A stretch of 64,000 nucleotides of DNA from Bacteroidales bacterium (lineage in GTDB: Bacteria; Bacteroidota; Bacteroidia; Bacteroidales; UBA932). The stretch covers positions 1 to 64,000 of the forward strand of contig JAKSJN010000009.1 of NCBI GenBank assembly GCA_024402135.1, in the 5' to 3' direction. This document shows, in pieces, positions 3,105 to 34,294 of this stretch (its first letter is position 1; each line of letters starts with the position of its first letter). The notes below the pieces were generated by a model. The model ran no database searches and was not told where the DNA came from. It saw nothing but the letters and a program-made list of their open reading frames with translations. The position numbers were made by a program, and so were the translations under genes.

Positions 3105-5969
3105 TTATAGCACCCTTTTACGGTATTGCGAAGGAGAAATACCCTCGTACTGTCGGAACAGCTTTCCGAAATATGAGAAATCCTCGAAACCACAACTCAT
3201 CGCGACATCTGCGATAGGAGTTGTATTATCCGCATCAAGCAGCTGCTTAGCCTTGTTAAGCTTGATCCTGTTAACGTAAGACGAAGTAGACTCCCCGGTA
3301 AGAGCATTGATCTTACGGCTGAGCTGACGAGGGCTGACGCACATATGGGAAGCGATAGAAGCGATATCCGCCGGCTTGTCCTGGGACAATGAAGACAGTA
3401 CATAATCAACGAACTTGCCCAGGAATGCCTTGTCCGCCTTGCTCATCTCAGTACCGTCACTGTTGGTCATAGCCGGGCTGCCTGCAGCCGTAGCGACGGT
3501 GTTCGAATATGTATCACGCAAAGTAGAGCGCTGTTTGAGAAGGCTCTGGACGCGGATACGGAGTTCATTACCGTCGATCGGCTTCTGGACAAAGGCATCG
3601 GCACCGGCTTCTATCAGCCTGAGCCTCTCCGCTTCATCAACTTTTGCAGTAATTACAATAATAGGAATATGGTTCAGAGCTGAAGAAGAGCGGATCTCAC
3701 GAACAAGTCCAAGACCATCCATTTCCGGCATCATAAGATCCGTGATTATGATGTCAGGAACAAGCTCCATAGCATTCTCAAGTGCCTCGAGACCATTCTC
3801 GGCATAGCAAAGACGATGCTCTCGGCTAAGCAAGGTGCCGACATAATAGGCAACGTCCCTGTTATCCTCGACTATCATCACAAGAGGATCAGAAAGGGAA
3901 CCTTCTCCTGTCTGAAGGAATTCCTCCGTGTCAGGGGCCGTATTAGGAACAATGACACCCATATTATTATCTGGAACAGCTGAGGTGCTGACAGCCATAC
4001 CCTTGTAATTGCTCTGGACAGGGATGGAGACGGTGAAAGTTGTGCCGCGGCCAAGTTCACTCTTGACCTCGACAGTACCGGACATGGCCTCGACAAGCTG
4101 TTTTACGAGCGACAGTCCAACACCAGTCGAAACATCTGCACTCTTGTCGCCTACGACATAGAAAGGCTCAAAAATATGCTTGACAGCGACCTCCGGGATA
4201 CCGCCACCTGTATCACTGACCTTCAGCACGAACTTTCCGTTCTCACAATTGGAAGAAACATAGATATGGCCTCCACTCTGGGTATATTTCAACGAGTTTG
4301 AAAGGAGATTCACGACGATCTTCTGGACATAGTCCGGCACAAAATCCATCTCGACCTGTTCCTCGCCCGGGAAGTAGATCATTTCAATACCTCTCTGCCT
4401 TGCATGAAGCACATAAGCCTCTACTGTGGTGCGGACAAAGTTGACCATATCGGCATAGCGCCACTCAATCTTGCCGAGAGCCGATTCAACCTTGCTGATG
4501 TCAAGCAGCTGATTGACCAGCGTCAGCAGTCCCTGTCCCTGGCGGACTATGGTCTGTGACATCGTCCTGACCTGTTCAGGATCCTGCAGAACCTCTTTGT
4601 TGCCGAGTTCATTCGCAAGGCCAAGAATCACTGTCAAAGGTGTCCTGAACTCGTGGGTGATGTTCGTGAAGAAATTCGTACGCATCCTGTCCACATTCTT
4701 CAGCACTTCATGCTTGCGCTTTCGCTGGCCCAGCATCCACACAAGGAACATGATAAGCGCAACAAAGAAAGAAACGACAAGCATTGCTATCACACCGACA
4801 TAATGCTTCTCTCGCCTCTGCATCTCGTAATTGCGCCTGAAGATATCGATCTGGTTCTGCTGTGTCTCATTTAGATAATCCAGGCGGGAATTCTGGGCCT
4901 TGGTGACGACATCGGCGTTACGGATGCTGTCACGATAAGCCACCGACTTCTTGAAGAAATCAAAAGCCTTCGGCGTATTTCCAAGTGCCTCATTCAAGCG
5001 ATACTCGAGTTCAAACAGCTGTGCATAGTATTCCAGCGACTCTACATTCTCCAGACTTGCCGCCGCAATATCAAGATTTCGTCGTGCCTCGGAATAATTC
5101 CCCTTATTAATGAAAGTACGGGAAACAGCAAGATCAACGGTGACAAGATCATATACGGAGTTCATGTCCTCAAGGATTTCATGTGCCTGCTGATATTCTT
5201 CCAGGGCATCATCCCACTTCTTTTCGAGTTCGAACAACTCTCCGAAGAAAATGTGGTTCAGAGCCACTCCCCTGTCATTCTTGTTCCTGACATTGGCATC
5301 CATCGCAAGGTTATAATACGTCCTTGCCGAATCGACCTGCCTGTATTCCTTGTAGATGGAGCCTATATTGGTGTAGTTGACTGCCAGACCATTCAGATCC
5401 TGGAGATAATCAGCACAATCGAATGCTTCACGGAAAGAATTCAGTGCAGCATCGTAATTGCCAAGCTCCATCTGGATGTTTCCAATACCGTTCATGGTCA
5501 CAGAACGGGCCTTGACAACATCGCTGCTAATCTTGTCGGTATAACGACCAAGCAGTGAAAGAGCCTCGTAATAGTACTGGGAAGACTCATCGAGCACAGC
5601 CATCTTTCGATAGTTTGTGCCGATGTTGTTAAGGTGCTCGATGAGCAGAAGTGTATCACCTAGTTCGCGGGACGCATCCAGTCCCTTGAGATGAGCAGCT
5701 ATCGACTCTCTGAAGCTGTTCTCCAGTCGATAGTGAATGCCTAGCTGTCTGTATGCGACAGACAGACCGGCAAGGTCGTTTTCCGCCTGACAGGACGTAA
5801 TGGCCTCCTGGAGAAGAGACACGTCGGACAGTTGTCCTATCGTATCTTCCGCATCCGTCCTGGCACGGCTTGTTTCGGTACTTACAACCTTCTCACCGCA
5901 CGAGACAGTGAGAAGGAGTGACATACCAACTGATACGACCCAATGTTTGAGCAAATTAAATGGGTTCAT
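3105..5969 (-). CDS. Hybrid two-component regulator: TPR sensor, histidine kinase, receiver, AraC-type output
   Basis: 954 residues carrying a whole signalling path in one chain. A lipoprotein-like start (LLLTVSC) is followed by several TPR helical repeats (about 60-370), a coiled segment, one membrane span (about 395-418), a HisKA domain with phospho-acceptor His439 in ITHEFRTPL, an HATPase domain, a receiver domain with Asp744 in DLMMPEMDG, and a C-terminal AraC/XylS helix-turn-helix ending SPSQYRKRVL. It differs from sugar-sensing HTCS proteins in having TPRs rather than Reg_prop/Y_Y_Y blades as the periplasmic sensor. It lies 47 bases after the Wzc-like kinase gene in the same direction, so it is probably co-transcribed and may regulate exopolysaccharide genes; that link is inference. 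Confidence 0.9.
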   Translation of the reverse strand: MNPFNLLKHWVVSVGMSLLLTVSCGEKVVSTETSRARTDAEDTIGQLSDVSLLQEAITSCQAENDLAGLSVAYRQLGIHYRLENSFRESIAAHLKGLDASRELGDTLLLIEHLNNIGTNYRKMAVLDESSQYYYEALSLLGRYTDKISSDVVKARSVTMNGIGNIQMELGNYDAALNSFREAFDCADYLQDLNGLAVNYTNIGSIYKEYRQVDSARTYYNLAMDANVRNKNDRGVALNHIFFGELFELEKKWDDALEEYQQAHEILEDMNSVYDLVTVDLAVSRTFINKGNYSEARRNLDIAAASLENVESLEYYAQLFELEYRLNEALGNTPKAFDFFKKSVAYRDSIRNADVVTKAQNSRLDYLNETQQNQIDIFRRNYEMQRREKHYVGVIAMLVVSFFVALIMFLVWMLGQRKRKHEVLKNVDRMRTNFFTNITHEFRTPLTVILGLANELGNKEVLQDPEQVRTMSQTIVRQGQGLLTLVNQLLDISKVESALGKIEWRYADMVNFVRTTVEAYVLHARQRGIEMIYFPGEEQVEMDFVPDYVQKIVVNLLSNSLKYTQSGGHIYVSSNCENGKFVLKVSDTGGGIPEVAVKHIFEPFYVVGDKSADVSTGVGLSLVKQLVEAMSGTVEVKSELGRGTTFTVSIPVQSNYKGMAVSTSAVPDNNMGVIVPNTAPDTEEFLQTGEGSLSDPLVMIVEDNRDVAYYVGTLLSREHRLCYAENGLEALENAMELVPDIIITDLMMPEMDGLGLVREIRSSSALNHIPIIVITAKVDEAERLRLIEAGADAFVQKPIDGNELRIRVQSLLKQRSTLRDTYSNTVATAAGSPAMTNSDGTEMSKADKAFLGKFVDYVLSSLSQDKPADIASIASHMCVSPRQLSRKINALTGESTSSYVNRIKLNKAKQLLDADNTTPIADVAMSCGFEDFSYFGKLFRQYEGISPSQYRKRVL

Positions 5970-30837: not shown

Positions 30838-30919
30838 GCGGGCGTGTTGAAATTGGTAGACAAGCCAGACTTAGGATCTGGTGCCTTCGTGTGTATGGGT
30901 TCGAGTCCCTTCGCCCGCA
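30838..30919 (+). tRNA. tRNA-Leu(TAG)
   Basis: Acceptor stem GCGGGCG/CGCCCGC, anticodon stem CCAGA/TCTGG with loop CTTAGGA giving anticodon TAG, a variable arm, and a T-arm with GGTTCGAGTCCC. CCA is not encoded. The accessory island begins right after it. Confidence 0.95.
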
Positions 30920-30928
30920 CGAAAATAT

Positions 30929-30964
30929 AAGCTAACTTATTGATCTACAATAGGTTAGCTTTTT
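30929..30964 (+). terminator. Terminator of tRNA-Leu
   Basis: Eight-base stem AAGCTAAC/GTTAGCTT followed by a T-run, nine bases past the tRNA. Confidence 0.85.
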
Positions 30965-31006
30965 GATTTATCGAATTCGCACAACAAAAACAGATTTACT
31001 GTTCAA

Positions 31007-31192
31007 TTGTGCACTTTAGCATGCAAAGATCATGGAATTAGGGTAATCTATTATTCTGATTTACAGATTCTGTATCCTTACTTTGTTGTTGAGGACTTTG
31101 AAACTTTGCTTCATCTTATTAAAGAACGGGGCATTGTGAAGGATAAAAGTTTGTGGGAAGATCCCGAGCTTCCTCTATTATTTGAAGAATAG
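31007..31192 (+). pseudogene. Coding remnant, 61 codons, unrecognised
   Basis: An open frame with TTG at 31007, TAG at 31190-31192. It reads CTLACKDHGIRVIYYSDLQI and ends DPELPLLFEE. The same frame is open upstream into the tRNA terminator (…NKNRFTVQLCTLAC), so the real start has probably been lost. Amino-acid make-up looks like a real globular protein end. I do not recognise the family. A short hairpin (GGGC/GCCC) follows the stop. Confidence 0.4.
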
Positions 31193-31244
31193 TGGGCATT
31201 AAGTAGCCCGGTTATTAAGCTGTTTTGTTTTTTAGGAAAATATT

Positions 31245-31274
31245 TTTGGAGGACTAAAAATATTACTACATTTG
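31245..31274 (+). promoter_or_regulatory. Promoter of the structured RNA
   Basis: TTTG at 31245-31248 and TACATTTG at 31267-31274 separated by 18 bases. Predicted start at about 31279, exactly at the first base of the 5' hairpin. Confidence 0.8.
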
Positions 31275-31278
31275 CAGT

Positions 31279-31439
31279 GTATTCGGATGAATACTGGCTT
31301 AGTCAGCCATTGAGCCTGGTTATACCGCTCACGGAAAATGTAGCCCTTAGGAATTAGGGATTTGTTCATAGCTTGGTTGTTACCCTCGACCATTTTTTTG
31401 AGTGCTACGTTGTTCCGTTAAAGAGACAGCGTCTTTTTT
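31279..31439 (+). ncRNA. Structured small RNA upstream of the AIPR-like gene
   Basis: About 160 nt, not coding in any frame. Visible helices in order: a 6-bp 5' hairpin (GTATTC-GGAT-GAATAC, 31279-31294); a 5-bp hairpin (TGGCT/AGCCA, 31295-31309); an 8-bp hairpin with a CT bulge (TGAGC..GGT-TAT-ACC..GCTCA, 31311-31331); a long-range 14-bp helix joining 31331-31344 with 31404-31418 (one bulged G at 31412, one G-T pair); small hairpins inside it (for example GGT/ACC at 31375-31384 and CCT/AGG near 31345-31359) and a seven-T stretch at 31393-31399; last, an intrinsic terminator hairpin. It has its own promoter. It does not match any RNA class I know. AIPR translation starts 33 bases after its end. 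Confidence 0.75.
31420..31439 (+). terminator. Intrinsic terminator of the structured RNA
   Basis: Eight base pairs AAAGAGAC/GTCTTTTT (one G-T pair) with loop AGC and a run of six T. It lies between the RNA and the AIPR-like start, so AIPR mRNA needs read-through. Confidence 0.75.
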
Positions 31440-31472
31440 ATTATGTAATTGAGGGAGCAACTAGCATTGATT

Positions 31473-32816
31473 ATGGAACAGAATCCAACTTACACTTACA
31501 TTAAGCTTGAATCAGGAAACACTCCTCAGCTCTCAAGAGAAGGTCTTAAACTCTGTAGAATTTCTTCAAGCATTTCTCCTTTCACCTTTATCAAACTCTT
31601 TGCAGCGGCGGACAATAAAATTAATCCACGTGTCGCAAAAGAGAATCAGATCACACAGGACATTCGTGCAACACTCGCCACAGAGCCTGAGATATTCTGG
31701 CTGAAAAGCAAGGGAATCGTTGTTGCGACACAGAACTGTAAACTCTCTGATAGAAACAGAGTCGGTATTACTCTTTCTGAGGATGTCGACAGAGAAGGTA
31801 TAATGGATGGAGGCCATAACACCCTGGCTGTAGCACAGTTTCTTCTTGTTAATCTCTTCCCTGAGAATAAAATGATCAAGGACTGGGCTGGGATGAAGGA
31901 GTTCTGGGCAGAGAATACTGATGAGATTGTCGAGAGATTCAATAAAAATGTCAACAGTGGAATGTTTAACTTCTCTATTCCGATTGAGATTATCTTCCCG
32001 TCTGACGAAGAAGGTGCCTTTGAGGAATATCTCGAGTTTATTAATAGTATCTGTGATGGCCGTAACGCCAATGTCCAGCTTAGAGATTCGGCCAAAGATA
32101 ATCAGGTCGGCATTTATGACGGCTTCAAAGATCTCATTGCTTGCAAGGACGATGTAATCTGGAAAACCGGTATGCCTGGAAAGATAAAAGTTGAGAATGT
32201 TGTTAGCATTGCCTCTTTGCTTTTCATTTCACTTCAGGAGAAGAATCTCCTTCCCCCTAGCTTAAGTACTCTCAATCCAGTATCTATCTATAGTGGTAGC
32301 GGCAAGTGTGTTGATTTCTTCGGTGAGGTGATCCGCCATCAGGATGTCTCTGTTAAAGATGGAGATAAGTATGTCATCACAAATCCAAGAGTAAAGTCTG
32401 CAATGTCTATGATTGACGACCTTCTTAAGTTTTACGATAAGATGTACCTTAAATTCCCTGCAATTTATCAGAGGACTCCTGGAAAGTTCGGCGGAATAAA
32501 AGCCGTGGAGATGAAGAGCAGTAAGTGTCCATTTGGATACTTTGAGGAGGTTATCGACTATAAGTATCCTAATGGTTTCTTTATTCCACTCTTCTGTGGC
32601 GTGCGTGAGCTCATCACTTATAATGAAACGACAGATACGATTTCATGGATTATCAATCCCGCCACTATCAATTTTGATGATCTGGACTGTGAAACATATG
32701 TCGAAATGATCAAGTTCCTGAATTTCAATCCGCAGAGTGTTGGAAAAGCTGCCATGATGTATAAGAACGGTGTTAACACCTTCAACGCATATAAAAATGC
32801 AGTACTCAACCGATAA
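31473..32816 (+). CDS. AIPR-like (abortive infection phage resistance) protein
   Basis: 447 residues from ATG 31473; a TTG eight codons upstream is less likely. The conserved block near residues 110-123, GIMDGGHNTLAVAQ, is like the 'DGxQT/N' core of AIPR proteins (PF10592) and also recalls the DGQHR motif of the related DndB/DGQHR fold. Before it comes 'PEIFWLKSKGIVVATQNCKL', after it 'IPIEIIFPSDEEGAFEEYLEFINSICDGRNANVQLRDSAKD'. AIPR proteins are tied to abortive phage resistance, mechanism unclear. No promoter is visible between the structured RNA's terminator and the start codon. AT-rich relative to the chromosome, so probably acquired. Confidence 0.7.
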   Translation: MEQNPTYTYIKLESGNTPQLSREGLKLCRISSSISPFTFIKLFAAADNKINPRVAKENQITQDIRATLATEPEIFWLKSKGIVVATQNCKLSDRNRVGITLSEDVDREGIMDGGHNTLAVAQFLLVNLFPENKMIKDWAGMKEFWAENTDEIVERFNKNVNSGMFNFSIPIEIIFPSDEEGAFEEYLEFINSICDGRNANVQLRDSAKDNQVGIYDGFKDLIACKDDVIWKTGMPGKIKVENVVSIASLLFISLQEKNLLPPSLSTLNPVSIYSGSGKCVDFFGEVIRHQDVSVKDGDKYVITNPRVKSAMSMIDDLLKFYDKMYLKFPAIYQRTPGKFGGIKAVEMKSSKCPFGYFEEVIDYKYPNGFFIPLFCGVRELITYNETTDTISWIINPATINFDDLDCETYVEMIKFLNFNPQSVGKAAMMYKNGVNTFNAYKNAVLNR

Positions 32817-32896: not shown

Positions 32897-32933
32897 AAGA
32901 AGCACCGCGTTAAGCGATGCTTCTTATTTTTTT
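32897..32933 (+). terminator. Terminator of the AIPR-like gene
   Basis: AAGAAGCA/TGCTTCTT with an inner CGC/GCG pairing and a following seven-T run. It overlaps the stop codon of the convergent Fic gene. Confidence 0.8.
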
Positions 32934-34231
32934 ATAATTTGATCGAAGTTGTCTCCTCTTATGTAAGCCGATTTTACTTTGTTTATTGGAATGCGCTTTA
33001 TGAAATCTCTATCCACTAATGAATCAAGATCCGTTTTTGCCGTAGTATGGCTGACGGCAAATCTTGTCTCAATCTCTTTAACTGTGATAACCATTTTGGG
33101 GTTATCGCGAACTAATGATAAGATAACGGCTTGCCTTTCATTTATATTTCCGAGTTGCATAAAATCTACACTTTGCTGTTTCTGGAGAATTTTCCGCTCA
33201 ATGTAATTCTTTAGGTCTTTAAACGCTAGATCAAGGACCCTTAAATGATAATTGACAAAGTAGCCAATATCTTTCCCATCGGCTTCCGCATATAGGAAGG
33301 CTTTCTCATAACTTGGCTTGCTTCTGTATATGATTCGCGATATGGACAGATATTCCGTTAACCAATATCCGCTCTTCAGCATATACCAATAGAACAATGC
33401 GCGAGCAGTTCTACCGTTCCCATCGACAAATGGGTGAACATAAGAAACGAGAAAATGGATAAAAATTGCCTTTAGAATAGGATGAACGAAAGTGCCATTT
33501 ATAGAGTCATTAGTATTTACGAACTCGCACAAATCATTCACAAACTCAGGGATGTCTTTATATGTCGGTGGAGTATGGACTATTTCATGGGTGAGGGAGT
33601 TCTCAACCACAACGTCATCGTTAGTCCGGAATCTTCCCGCATCTTTTTCTTCTTCCAATGTCTTCCGAGTCATAAGAGAATGTATCTCTAACAACAATCC
33701 GGCTGTGAGATTTTCATCCTTATGCTCGACTATAAATCTAATTGAAGCATAGTTGTTGAAGATCATCTGTTCAGAACGAGTCCTTGGTGAAATTTTCTTT
33801 CTCAACATGTCCTTTGCAACCTTCCTCGTAGTTGACGCTCCTTCCATTTGGCTAGATGAAATAGCCTCTTCCATCAAAGCGGATATCAAGTACCGTTCCC
33901 TATCATCTGAAGGAATGATGGAGTTGTTACCCCATGAGCCACCAAAGTTCATGTCAAAATTATGGCATAACGCCTGCATTCTATTTGTAATGGGTAATGT
34001 TATTCCGTACCTTTCCCATTGAAAGCCTCGTATCATCAATCTGCTGAATTTGACCAAAGACCATAATTCTTCCGAAGAAATATCTTCTGGCTTCTTTTTA
34101 TATTTTAAGTCAGTCCAATACCAATATTCATTATTCGCAGTTTGGATAATTGCCTGCACATCAGCTCTTTCGTAGAGGGATAAAAACTTCTTATCAAGAG
34201 GTTTTGATATCTTTGGGGTTGGTTCTATCAT
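32924..34231 (-). CDS. Fic-family AMPylase-like protein with winged-helix C-terminus
   Basis: About 435 residues. The Fic active site HPFVDGNGRT is complete, with catalytic His266. An N-terminal inhibitory helix carries SSQMEG (Glu130), the S/T-xxx-E-G/N motif that holds class II Fic enzymes off. The C-terminal end is a winged helix (VITVKEIETRFAVSHTTAKTDLDSLV). Fic proteins of this type transfer AMP to a target protein. ATG at 34231 is chosen because the -7 box lies at 34248-34255, downstream of the frame's earlier start codon. The wHTH and an inverted repeat in the promoter suggest self-regulation. Confidence 0.9.
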   Translation of the reverse strand: MIEPTPKISKPLDKKFLSLYERADVQAIIQTANNEYWYWTDLKYKKKPEDISSEELWSLVKFSRLMIRGFQWERYGITLPITNRMQALCHNFDMNFGGSWGNNSIIPSDDRERYLISALMEEAISSSQMEGASTTRKVAKDMLRKKISPRTRSEQMIFNNYASIRFIVEHKDENLTAGLLLEIHSLMTRKTLEEEKDAGRFRTNDDVVVENSLTHEIVHTPPTYKDIPEFVNDLCEFVNTNDSINGTFVHPILKAIFIHFLVSYVHPFVDGNGRTARALFYWYMLKSGYWLTEYLSISRIIYRSKPSYEKAFLYAEADGKDIGYFVNYHLRVLDLAFKDLKNYIERKILQKQQSVDFMQLGNINERQAVILSLVRDNPKMVITVKEIETRFAVSHTTAKTDLDSLVDRDFIKRIPINKVKSAYIRGDNFDQIIKK

Positions 34232-34247
34232 ACTTCTATTTTTACTG

Positions 34248-34294
34248 CAAATATAGGTGAATTCTTGCAAATACTTCAAAAACTTGCAAGAATT
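34248..34294 (-). promoter_or_regulatory. Fic promoter with 11-bp inverted repeat
   Basis: -7 box TATATTTG (minus) at 34248-34255 and a CAAA -33 element near 34277. AATTCTTGCAA at 34260-34270 and its exact reverse complement at 34284-34294 flank 13 bases and cover the -33 region, an operator-like arrangement. Confidence 0.65.

Follow-up and report, generated by a model that had tools for sequence, protein, structure and literature searches.

A structured leader RNA accompanies one clade of AIPR genes

A structured RNA that is new to Rfam 15 accompanies one clade of solitary AIPR genes across phyla. It was encountered in a 64,000-nucleotide (nt) stretch of Bacteroidales DNA (the window), where the element examined, at positions 31245–31472, lies just 5′ of a gene encoding an AIPR-like protein. 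A preliminary description of this locus had proposed an unannotated structured RNA paired with the gene, and had named a lack of covariation and of conservation upstream of other AIPR genes, or a match to a known RNA class, as results that would speak against the proposal. None of these outcomes occurred when tested: the RNA is conserved upstream of homologues in several phyla, its helices carry compensatory changes, and no Rfam 15 family matched it at the gathering score in the window and the 33 of 88 AIPR loci that were scanned. The Rfam matches found there were tRNAs and one traJ-II element, none of them at the leader. The traJ-II match (locus L058, 84–184) is on the same contig as an AIPR unit, far from the leader, and suggests a conjugative neighborhood. 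Near the window RNA, sau-59 at 30963–31091 (E 0.038, far below the cut-off) and CAESAR (E 3.2) were taken as chance matches.

The 88 loci were collected by scanning genome and viral contigs with a three-protein alignment (A1) of the window protein and its plasmid relatives; they consist of the best 80 of 111 loci from bacterial genomes, 6 viral contigs, and 2 plasmid loci. A non-redundant set of 78 leaders was obtained by setting aside 11 near-duplicate or redundant loci (L035, L063, L072, L086, L087, L088, L096, L097, L107, L118, and L119) and adding the window. When read individually, the regions upstream of the AIPR genes show a common layout, in which one to three hairpins closed by a GGAU loop (less commonly GGAC, GGUA, or GGAA) are followed by long-range helices and then by the gene. 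The density of hairpins with a GGAU tetraloop and a stem of at least 5 pairs is 2.24 per kb within the 260 nt preceding AIPR and 0.019 per kb in the remainder of these loci, counted on both strands. A GGAU or GGAC hairpin is present in 51 of the 88 leaders (200 random draws: mean 0.8, maximum 4) and, with stems of at least 4 pairs, in 61 of the 78 non-redundant leaders (100 random draws: mean 3.5, maximum 8). The remaining 17 lack such a hairpin, and the number per leader ranges from 0 to 3. Hairpins within one leader have the loop in common and differ in their stems.

Of 16 Bacteroidota leaders, 15 have a TAnnTTTG-like box just ahead of the first hairpin; random 24-mers drawn from these loci contain one in 4.2% of cases, a control unmatched for A+T content. 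At the other end of the leader, the last 42 nt before the start codon are complementary to the upstream leader (p ≤ 0.05) in 19 of 77 AIPR leaders and in 6 of 136 control genes (Fisher 2e-5), as measured with a simple score against mononucleotide shuffles; L081 was too short of upstream sequence to be included. The leader fold therefore reaches the start codon in many members. In Proteobacteria a final CUCC..GGAG hairpin seems, by eye, to cover the ribosome site. A terminator between RNA and gene was recognized by eye in L037, L044, L045, L052, and several Bacillota leaders, and was not seen in leaders L039–L042.

Linkage of the RNA to AIPR was quantified with two covariance models. The first (R2), built from 19 leaders, was used to search both strands of 732,069 bases, made up of 79 of the 88 loci plus the window. 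At E < 0.01 it gave 38 matches, every one of them on the same strand as AIPR and shortly upstream of the AIPR match, and none elsewhere; 19 of the 38 lie outside the seed, including three (L035, L096, and L107) that are close to seed sequences. When 20 whole genomes were searched, 19 gave a match, each with the score of the AIPR leader, and the one additional match (30.5 bits) falls within an open reading frame of 542 codons whose contig has no AIPR. R2 was also run on 199 genomes from a single family of Alphaproteobacteria, five of which gave a match. Three of these matches are strong and lie next to an AIPR gene; the other two are weak (29.2 and 28.4 bits) and come from genomes in which AIPR was not matched. 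Four of the 199 genomes have an AIPR match, and the fourth leader shows P2, the second hairpin, and a GGAU by eye. The second model (R1) represents Bacteroidota and was built from six of eight aligned leaders; L038 and L049 were excluded because of insertions, and the model recovers both. Over 43 sources, R1 picked up four non-seed leaders at E < 0.01, and its marginal matches, up to E of about 1.1, are all within AIPR leaders. No match was obtained with R1 in 247 genomes of the phylum, a search made without a positive control. In the sequences these searches covered, the RNA goes with this AIPR clade and is practically absent elsewhere.

Pairing with the RNA does not extend to AIPR genes in general: two remoter ones (22–23% identical) have instead a divergent gene for a helix-turn-helix (HTH) regulator 80 and 180 nt upstream. 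Three viral contigs (L117–L119) carry an AIPR homologue that is 44% identical and has no GGAU hairpin upstream (L117 being the one counted); this AIPR has possibly lost its RNA or is under different control.

Covariation in the leaders

Five measures of covariation were compared with 500 shuffles for several sets of leaders, using structures derived from the same sequences that were then counted. In six Bacteroidota leaders, P3, the long helix A, and P4 together have 107 of 107 cells paired, and four pairs are changed on both sides; no shuffle reached the covariation score, and 20 of 500 had as many pairs changed on both sides. A further set of four Bacteroidota leaders (L043, L044, L045, and L052) has 88.0% of cells paired and 14 of 40 pairs changed on both sides, with 0 of 500 shuffles as high for both measures, while the measure of further pair types was matched by 298 of 500. 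These four leaders also share a crossing helix B (81.8% of cells paired), the 3′ strand of which lies past the terminator and beside the start codon. In 19 leaders from Proteobacteria and Bacillota, P1 is paired in 112 of 113 cells and all six of its pairs are changed on both sides, a count equaled by 8 of 500 shuffles. When 38 leaders were aligned to the model, which leans the alignment toward the structure, P1 was paired in 98.6% and P2 in 80.3% of cells, with 10 of 500 shuffles as high in the count of pairs changed on both sides. The window RNA and its counterpart in L037, the locus with the nearest protein relative, have 92.9% of cells paired and three compensatory pairs; with two sequences only, 138 of 500 shuffles were as high.

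The RNA of the window

Base-by-base inspection bore out the promoter as first described, with TTTG at 31245–31248, an 18-nt spacer, and TACATTTG at 31267–31274 (31245–31274 overall, forward strand, as are all features of the element), which we take to be a Bacteroidetes-type promoter. An 11-bp inverted repeat at 31239–31264 (AATATTTTTGG / CTAAAAATATT, with one G-T pair) lies over the −33 box and is operator-like; no inverted repeat is evident at the matching place in L037. Downstream of the promoter, the three consecutive hairpins that had been proposed are found at their assigned positions. P1 (31279–31294) has 6 bp and a GGAU loop, the motif found conserved across leaders and enriched upstream of AIPR genes; its pairs are retained in L037 with one compensatory change, and the loop there is GGUA. 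P2 (31295–31309) has a UAGUC loop and likewise shows one compensatory change in L037. P3 (31312–31330, GAGC..GCUC) is identical in L037 and, being invariant between the two, provides no evidence of covariation.

The long-range helix also agrees with its initial description. Its 5′ strand (A1, 31331–31344) and 3′ strand (A1′, 31404–31418) form 14 pairs with one bulged G and one G-U, and between the window and L037 there is one compensatory change and the loss of one end pair. The region 31278–31440 folds at −49.4 kcal/mol, with a z-score of −2.94 relative to dinucleotide shuffles (1 of 200 equal). The signal is stronger for 31279–31418 (z −3.25, 0 of 200) and falls to −0.66 (54 of 200) for 31279–31399, where the 3′ arm is removed; thus, most of the fold signal of the window comes from the long helix. 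A small hairpin discerned by eye, P4 (31344–31359), has GGAA within its loop (GGAU in L037) and competes with the inner part of the minimum-free-energy fold.

The intrinsic terminator that had been suggested corresponds to a weak stem (31421–31437) and T run immediately before the gene (31421–31439), recognized by eye and not among the sites listed by the terminator scan; L037 likewise has a stem and T run at this position. The scan identified a further terminator-like site within the long helix, at 31374–31399, consisting of hairpin P5 (31374–31392) and seven T residues. P5 is present in L037 and its T run is not. A possible crossing helix B, weak and by eye, would pair 31376–31387 with B1′ (31451–31461), next to the start codon, through 11 pairs with one bulge; L037 has a counterpart by eye, and an ungapped-helix test in the window was not significant (p 0.32).

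Neither R1 nor R2 matches the window RNA. Its protein ancestry, position, loop motif, and layout assign it to the leader family, of which the window RNA, together with that of L037, is a divergent subtype.

The AIPR-like protein and its distribution

The gene downstream of the RNA (31473–32816, forward strand) encodes 447 amino acids (aa), with translation likely starting at the ATG at 31473 rather than at an alternative TTG at 31449. The protein scores 26.2 bits against Pfam AIPR (PF10592), barely above the gathering cut-off of 25, and its best AIPR match is confined to residues 60–130 of the 455-aa reading. NCBIfam and PADLOC gave no useful match for it. When 86 family members were scanned against Pfam at E ≤ 0.01, AIPR was found in 61 and three other families in one or two members each; Abi_2 (AbiD/F) was absent from these matches. 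A profile search of Protein Data Bank (PDB) sequences with the AIPR family gave 0 matches. The AlphaFold2 model has a predicted local distance difference test score of 95.2, and Foldseek found no structure at E ≤ 0.001, with ParB-like entries appearing only in a second look; as modeled, the N-terminal domain appears to resemble ParB/SspE/BrxU folds. The portion of PMC3506569 drawn on here places the N-terminus of DndB in AbiU1/AIPR, links AIPR to restriction-modification, and predicts an N-terminal HEPN RNase for the AIPR/AbiU1/DndB group. By contrast, such a domain was not seen in our model or alignment: in the 84-sequence alignment no position is shared by an RX4-6H (HEPN) motif, which is at the same place in at most 11 of 84 members, and H114 is the sole column with at least 50% His.

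Among 85 aligned relatives, identity to the window protein ranges from 26 to 83%. The protein tree places the window protein and 20 others, mostly from Bacteroidota, in one group with full support; this group includes one Acidobacteriota and one Verrucomicrobiota metagenome-assembled genome (MAG) and one viral contig. The nearest relative, that of L037, is 83% identical and comes from a Bacteroidales MAG from goat reticulum. The remaining 65 sequences are from Pseudomonadota, Actinomycetota, Bacillota, a Bacteroidota MAG (L091), plasmids, and viral contigs. Relatives about 30% identical were found among plasmid records in Subdoligranulum and Roseomonas, and none were found in the phage records searched or in the genome contigs scanned with the single window protein. 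The Roseomonas plasmid copy (L035, 3140–3691) is behind a PIN-domain gene, among insertion sequence elements.

The gene is uncommon. Two draws of genomes gave AIPR matches in 2 of 101 and 2 of 395; one in each draw is the genome of the window, which has the only convincing match, and the non-self matches are short pieces. In a genome of the same genus (G036, contig C46, 31549–31674; L002 and L003), two short stretches are 75–81% identical to the AIPR protein and are perhaps the remains of a decayed copy. A nucleotide search with the RNA identified no relative among 299 genomes of the family; 269 of these gave matches at E ≤ 1 that, as listed and apart from the window's own locus, are short and fall mostly in the promoter part (query positions 1 to about 44), with some elsewhere.

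Genomic neighborhood

After removal of 12 redundant loci, the 141 proteins encoded immediately next to AIPR in the other 76 were scanned for recurring partners and defense functions. No recurring protein partner was found among them. Defense genes do occur among the matches listed, where the PADLOC results represent 25 of 140 families; the two that resemble DndA/SspA may simply be cysteine desulfurases of the ordinary kind. In the window, a Fic/DOC family gene with a C-terminal HTH-like stretch (32924–34279) is convergent with the AIPR gene. Upstream, an open reading frame (30983–31192) that resembles the end of a truncated gene lies between a tRNA-Leu (30838–30920) and the RNA. The AIPR unit is located shortly downstream of this tRNA and, in the Subdoligranulum plasmid (L034), of another (3369–3451) that is leucine-like by eye, which may reflect coincidence or an insertion preference. 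A comparison with empty sites yielded no usable site, as tRNA-Leu matches outside the window's genome span little beyond the tRNA.

Comparison with known RNA-controlled systems

No RNA partner of AIPR was found among the matches listed in the open-licence literature, in line with the preliminary description, which knew of none; unpublished or closed work may exist. Type III toxin–antitoxin systems and their RNA-release logic are defined in the sections of PMC5086642 used here. Like the type III systems ToxIN, TenpIN, and CptIN as presented in those sections, the AIPR unit has a single predicted promoter, with a structured RNA first and the protein gene second on the same strand, a Rho-independent terminator (here a predicted one, in some members only), repeated RNA elements, crossing helices, and an abortive-infection setting. 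Unlike the near-identical direct repeats those sections describe, the hairpins of the AIPR leaders share a loop but not their stems, and the protein is an AIPR with an apparently ParB-like N-terminus as modeled, with no PDB relative by sequence. With regard to the ToxN endoribonuclease fold of type III, the profile search gave 0 matches and Foldseek none at E ≤ 0.001. The excerpted parts of PMC12373285 report that the AbiF-associated RNA RCd22 of C. difficile acts on its protein in cis and in trans. According to those parts, the abiF RNA resembles the present one in that conserved motif hairpins, of which RCd22 has two, precede a single abortive infection (Abi) gene, AbiF or AbiD; the protein there is Abi_2/AbiD/F rather than AIPR, and no Rfam match was obtained near the scanned leaders. 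The best reading of these comparisons is that the unit belongs to neither type III nor AbiF while probably working like RNA-controlled Abi modules, because near-identical repeats (type III) and an Abi_2 protein (AbiF) are both missing.

A possible mechanism and its alternatives

We favor, at about even chances, a two-part module of the abortive-infection type in which a solitary AIPR protein is gated by the structured RNA upstream of its gene and binds its own leader. Judging from the promoter boxes, RNA and AIPR would be made from one promoter, with the transcript starting at the first hairpin. In some members, including the window, many transcripts probably stop at the terminator before the gene, which would yield an RNA of about 120–165 nt in excess over the mRNA. 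The hairpins with GGAU-type loops are the probable landing sites of the AIPR protein, since the RNA occurs practically nowhere without AIPR in what was searched. Such binding would hold AIPR low in amount or inactive, and read-through mRNA would additionally bear the helix beside the start codon, so that the leader may be a switch that keeps the AIPR gene quiet until needed. By analogy with type III and AbiF systems, phage takeover would halt the synthesis of fresh RNA and free AIPR to act. A more specific version can be offered only tentatively, at somewhat below even chances: a ParB-like, possibly nucleotide-switching effector is held in check by an RNA of GGAU hairpins and crossing helix, and is released when, during infection, the RNA is no longer made or loses its fold. 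The unit would then be a counterpart of type III toxin–antitoxin systems that evolved around an unrelated fold and is present in several phyla, in some cases on a plasmid or viral contig.

The strongest alternative is a leader that acts solely in cis, that is, a 5′ untranslated region controlling termination or translation of the AIPR mRNA, autogenously or through another protein, with no trans-acting RNA and no inhibition of the protein by RNA. It is compatible with an RNA that, in each of the clades read, extends up to the region of the start codon, with the enriched complementarity reaching the last 42 nt, with the final hairpin that by eye covers the ribosome site in Proteobacteria, with leaders that have no terminator, and with the lack of a second credible R2 copy elsewhere in the 20 genomes. 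However, control of one start codon needs less than a 5′ series of hairpins that share a loop motif, and in the window two terminator-like sites separate RNA and gene; we consider this explanation rather unlikely. The near one-to-one linkage and the conservation of P1 and the core across phyla could also be expected if the RNA were a working part of the effector, in an AIPR-RNA ribonucleoprotein that senses or is activated by phage and needs its RNA, as is reported for defense reverse transcriptases and their noncoding RNAs. Yet no guide or template stretch is apparent, stem sequences vary freely while loops and helices are kept, and the RNA sits in a leader, the usual place of control elements, making such a particle improbable.

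A riboswitch-like element that binds a ligand or senses stress, and has nothing to do with AIPR binding, would also fit a conserved structure in which one leader has both terminator-like helices and helices close to the start codon. Riboswitches usually precede several gene families, whereas this RNA is tied to one, and the varying number of GGA[U/C] hairpins also fits poorly, so we regard a riboswitch as very improbable. That the fold arose by chance in an ordinary intergenic region could be argued from the window alone, where the z-score is a moderate −3 or so and covariation involves two sequences, but for the family it is contradicted by the motif enrichment, covariation, and linkage over the collected loci and is hardly credible.

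The RNA provides a direct handle on AIPR genes, which recur in defense islands and for which a mechanism has so far been missing. If AIPR is gated by RNA, RNA-controlled abortive infection would gain an unrelated protein fold; if the RNA serves as no more than a leader, it would still represent an undescribed family of regulatory RNA with an unusual loop motif.
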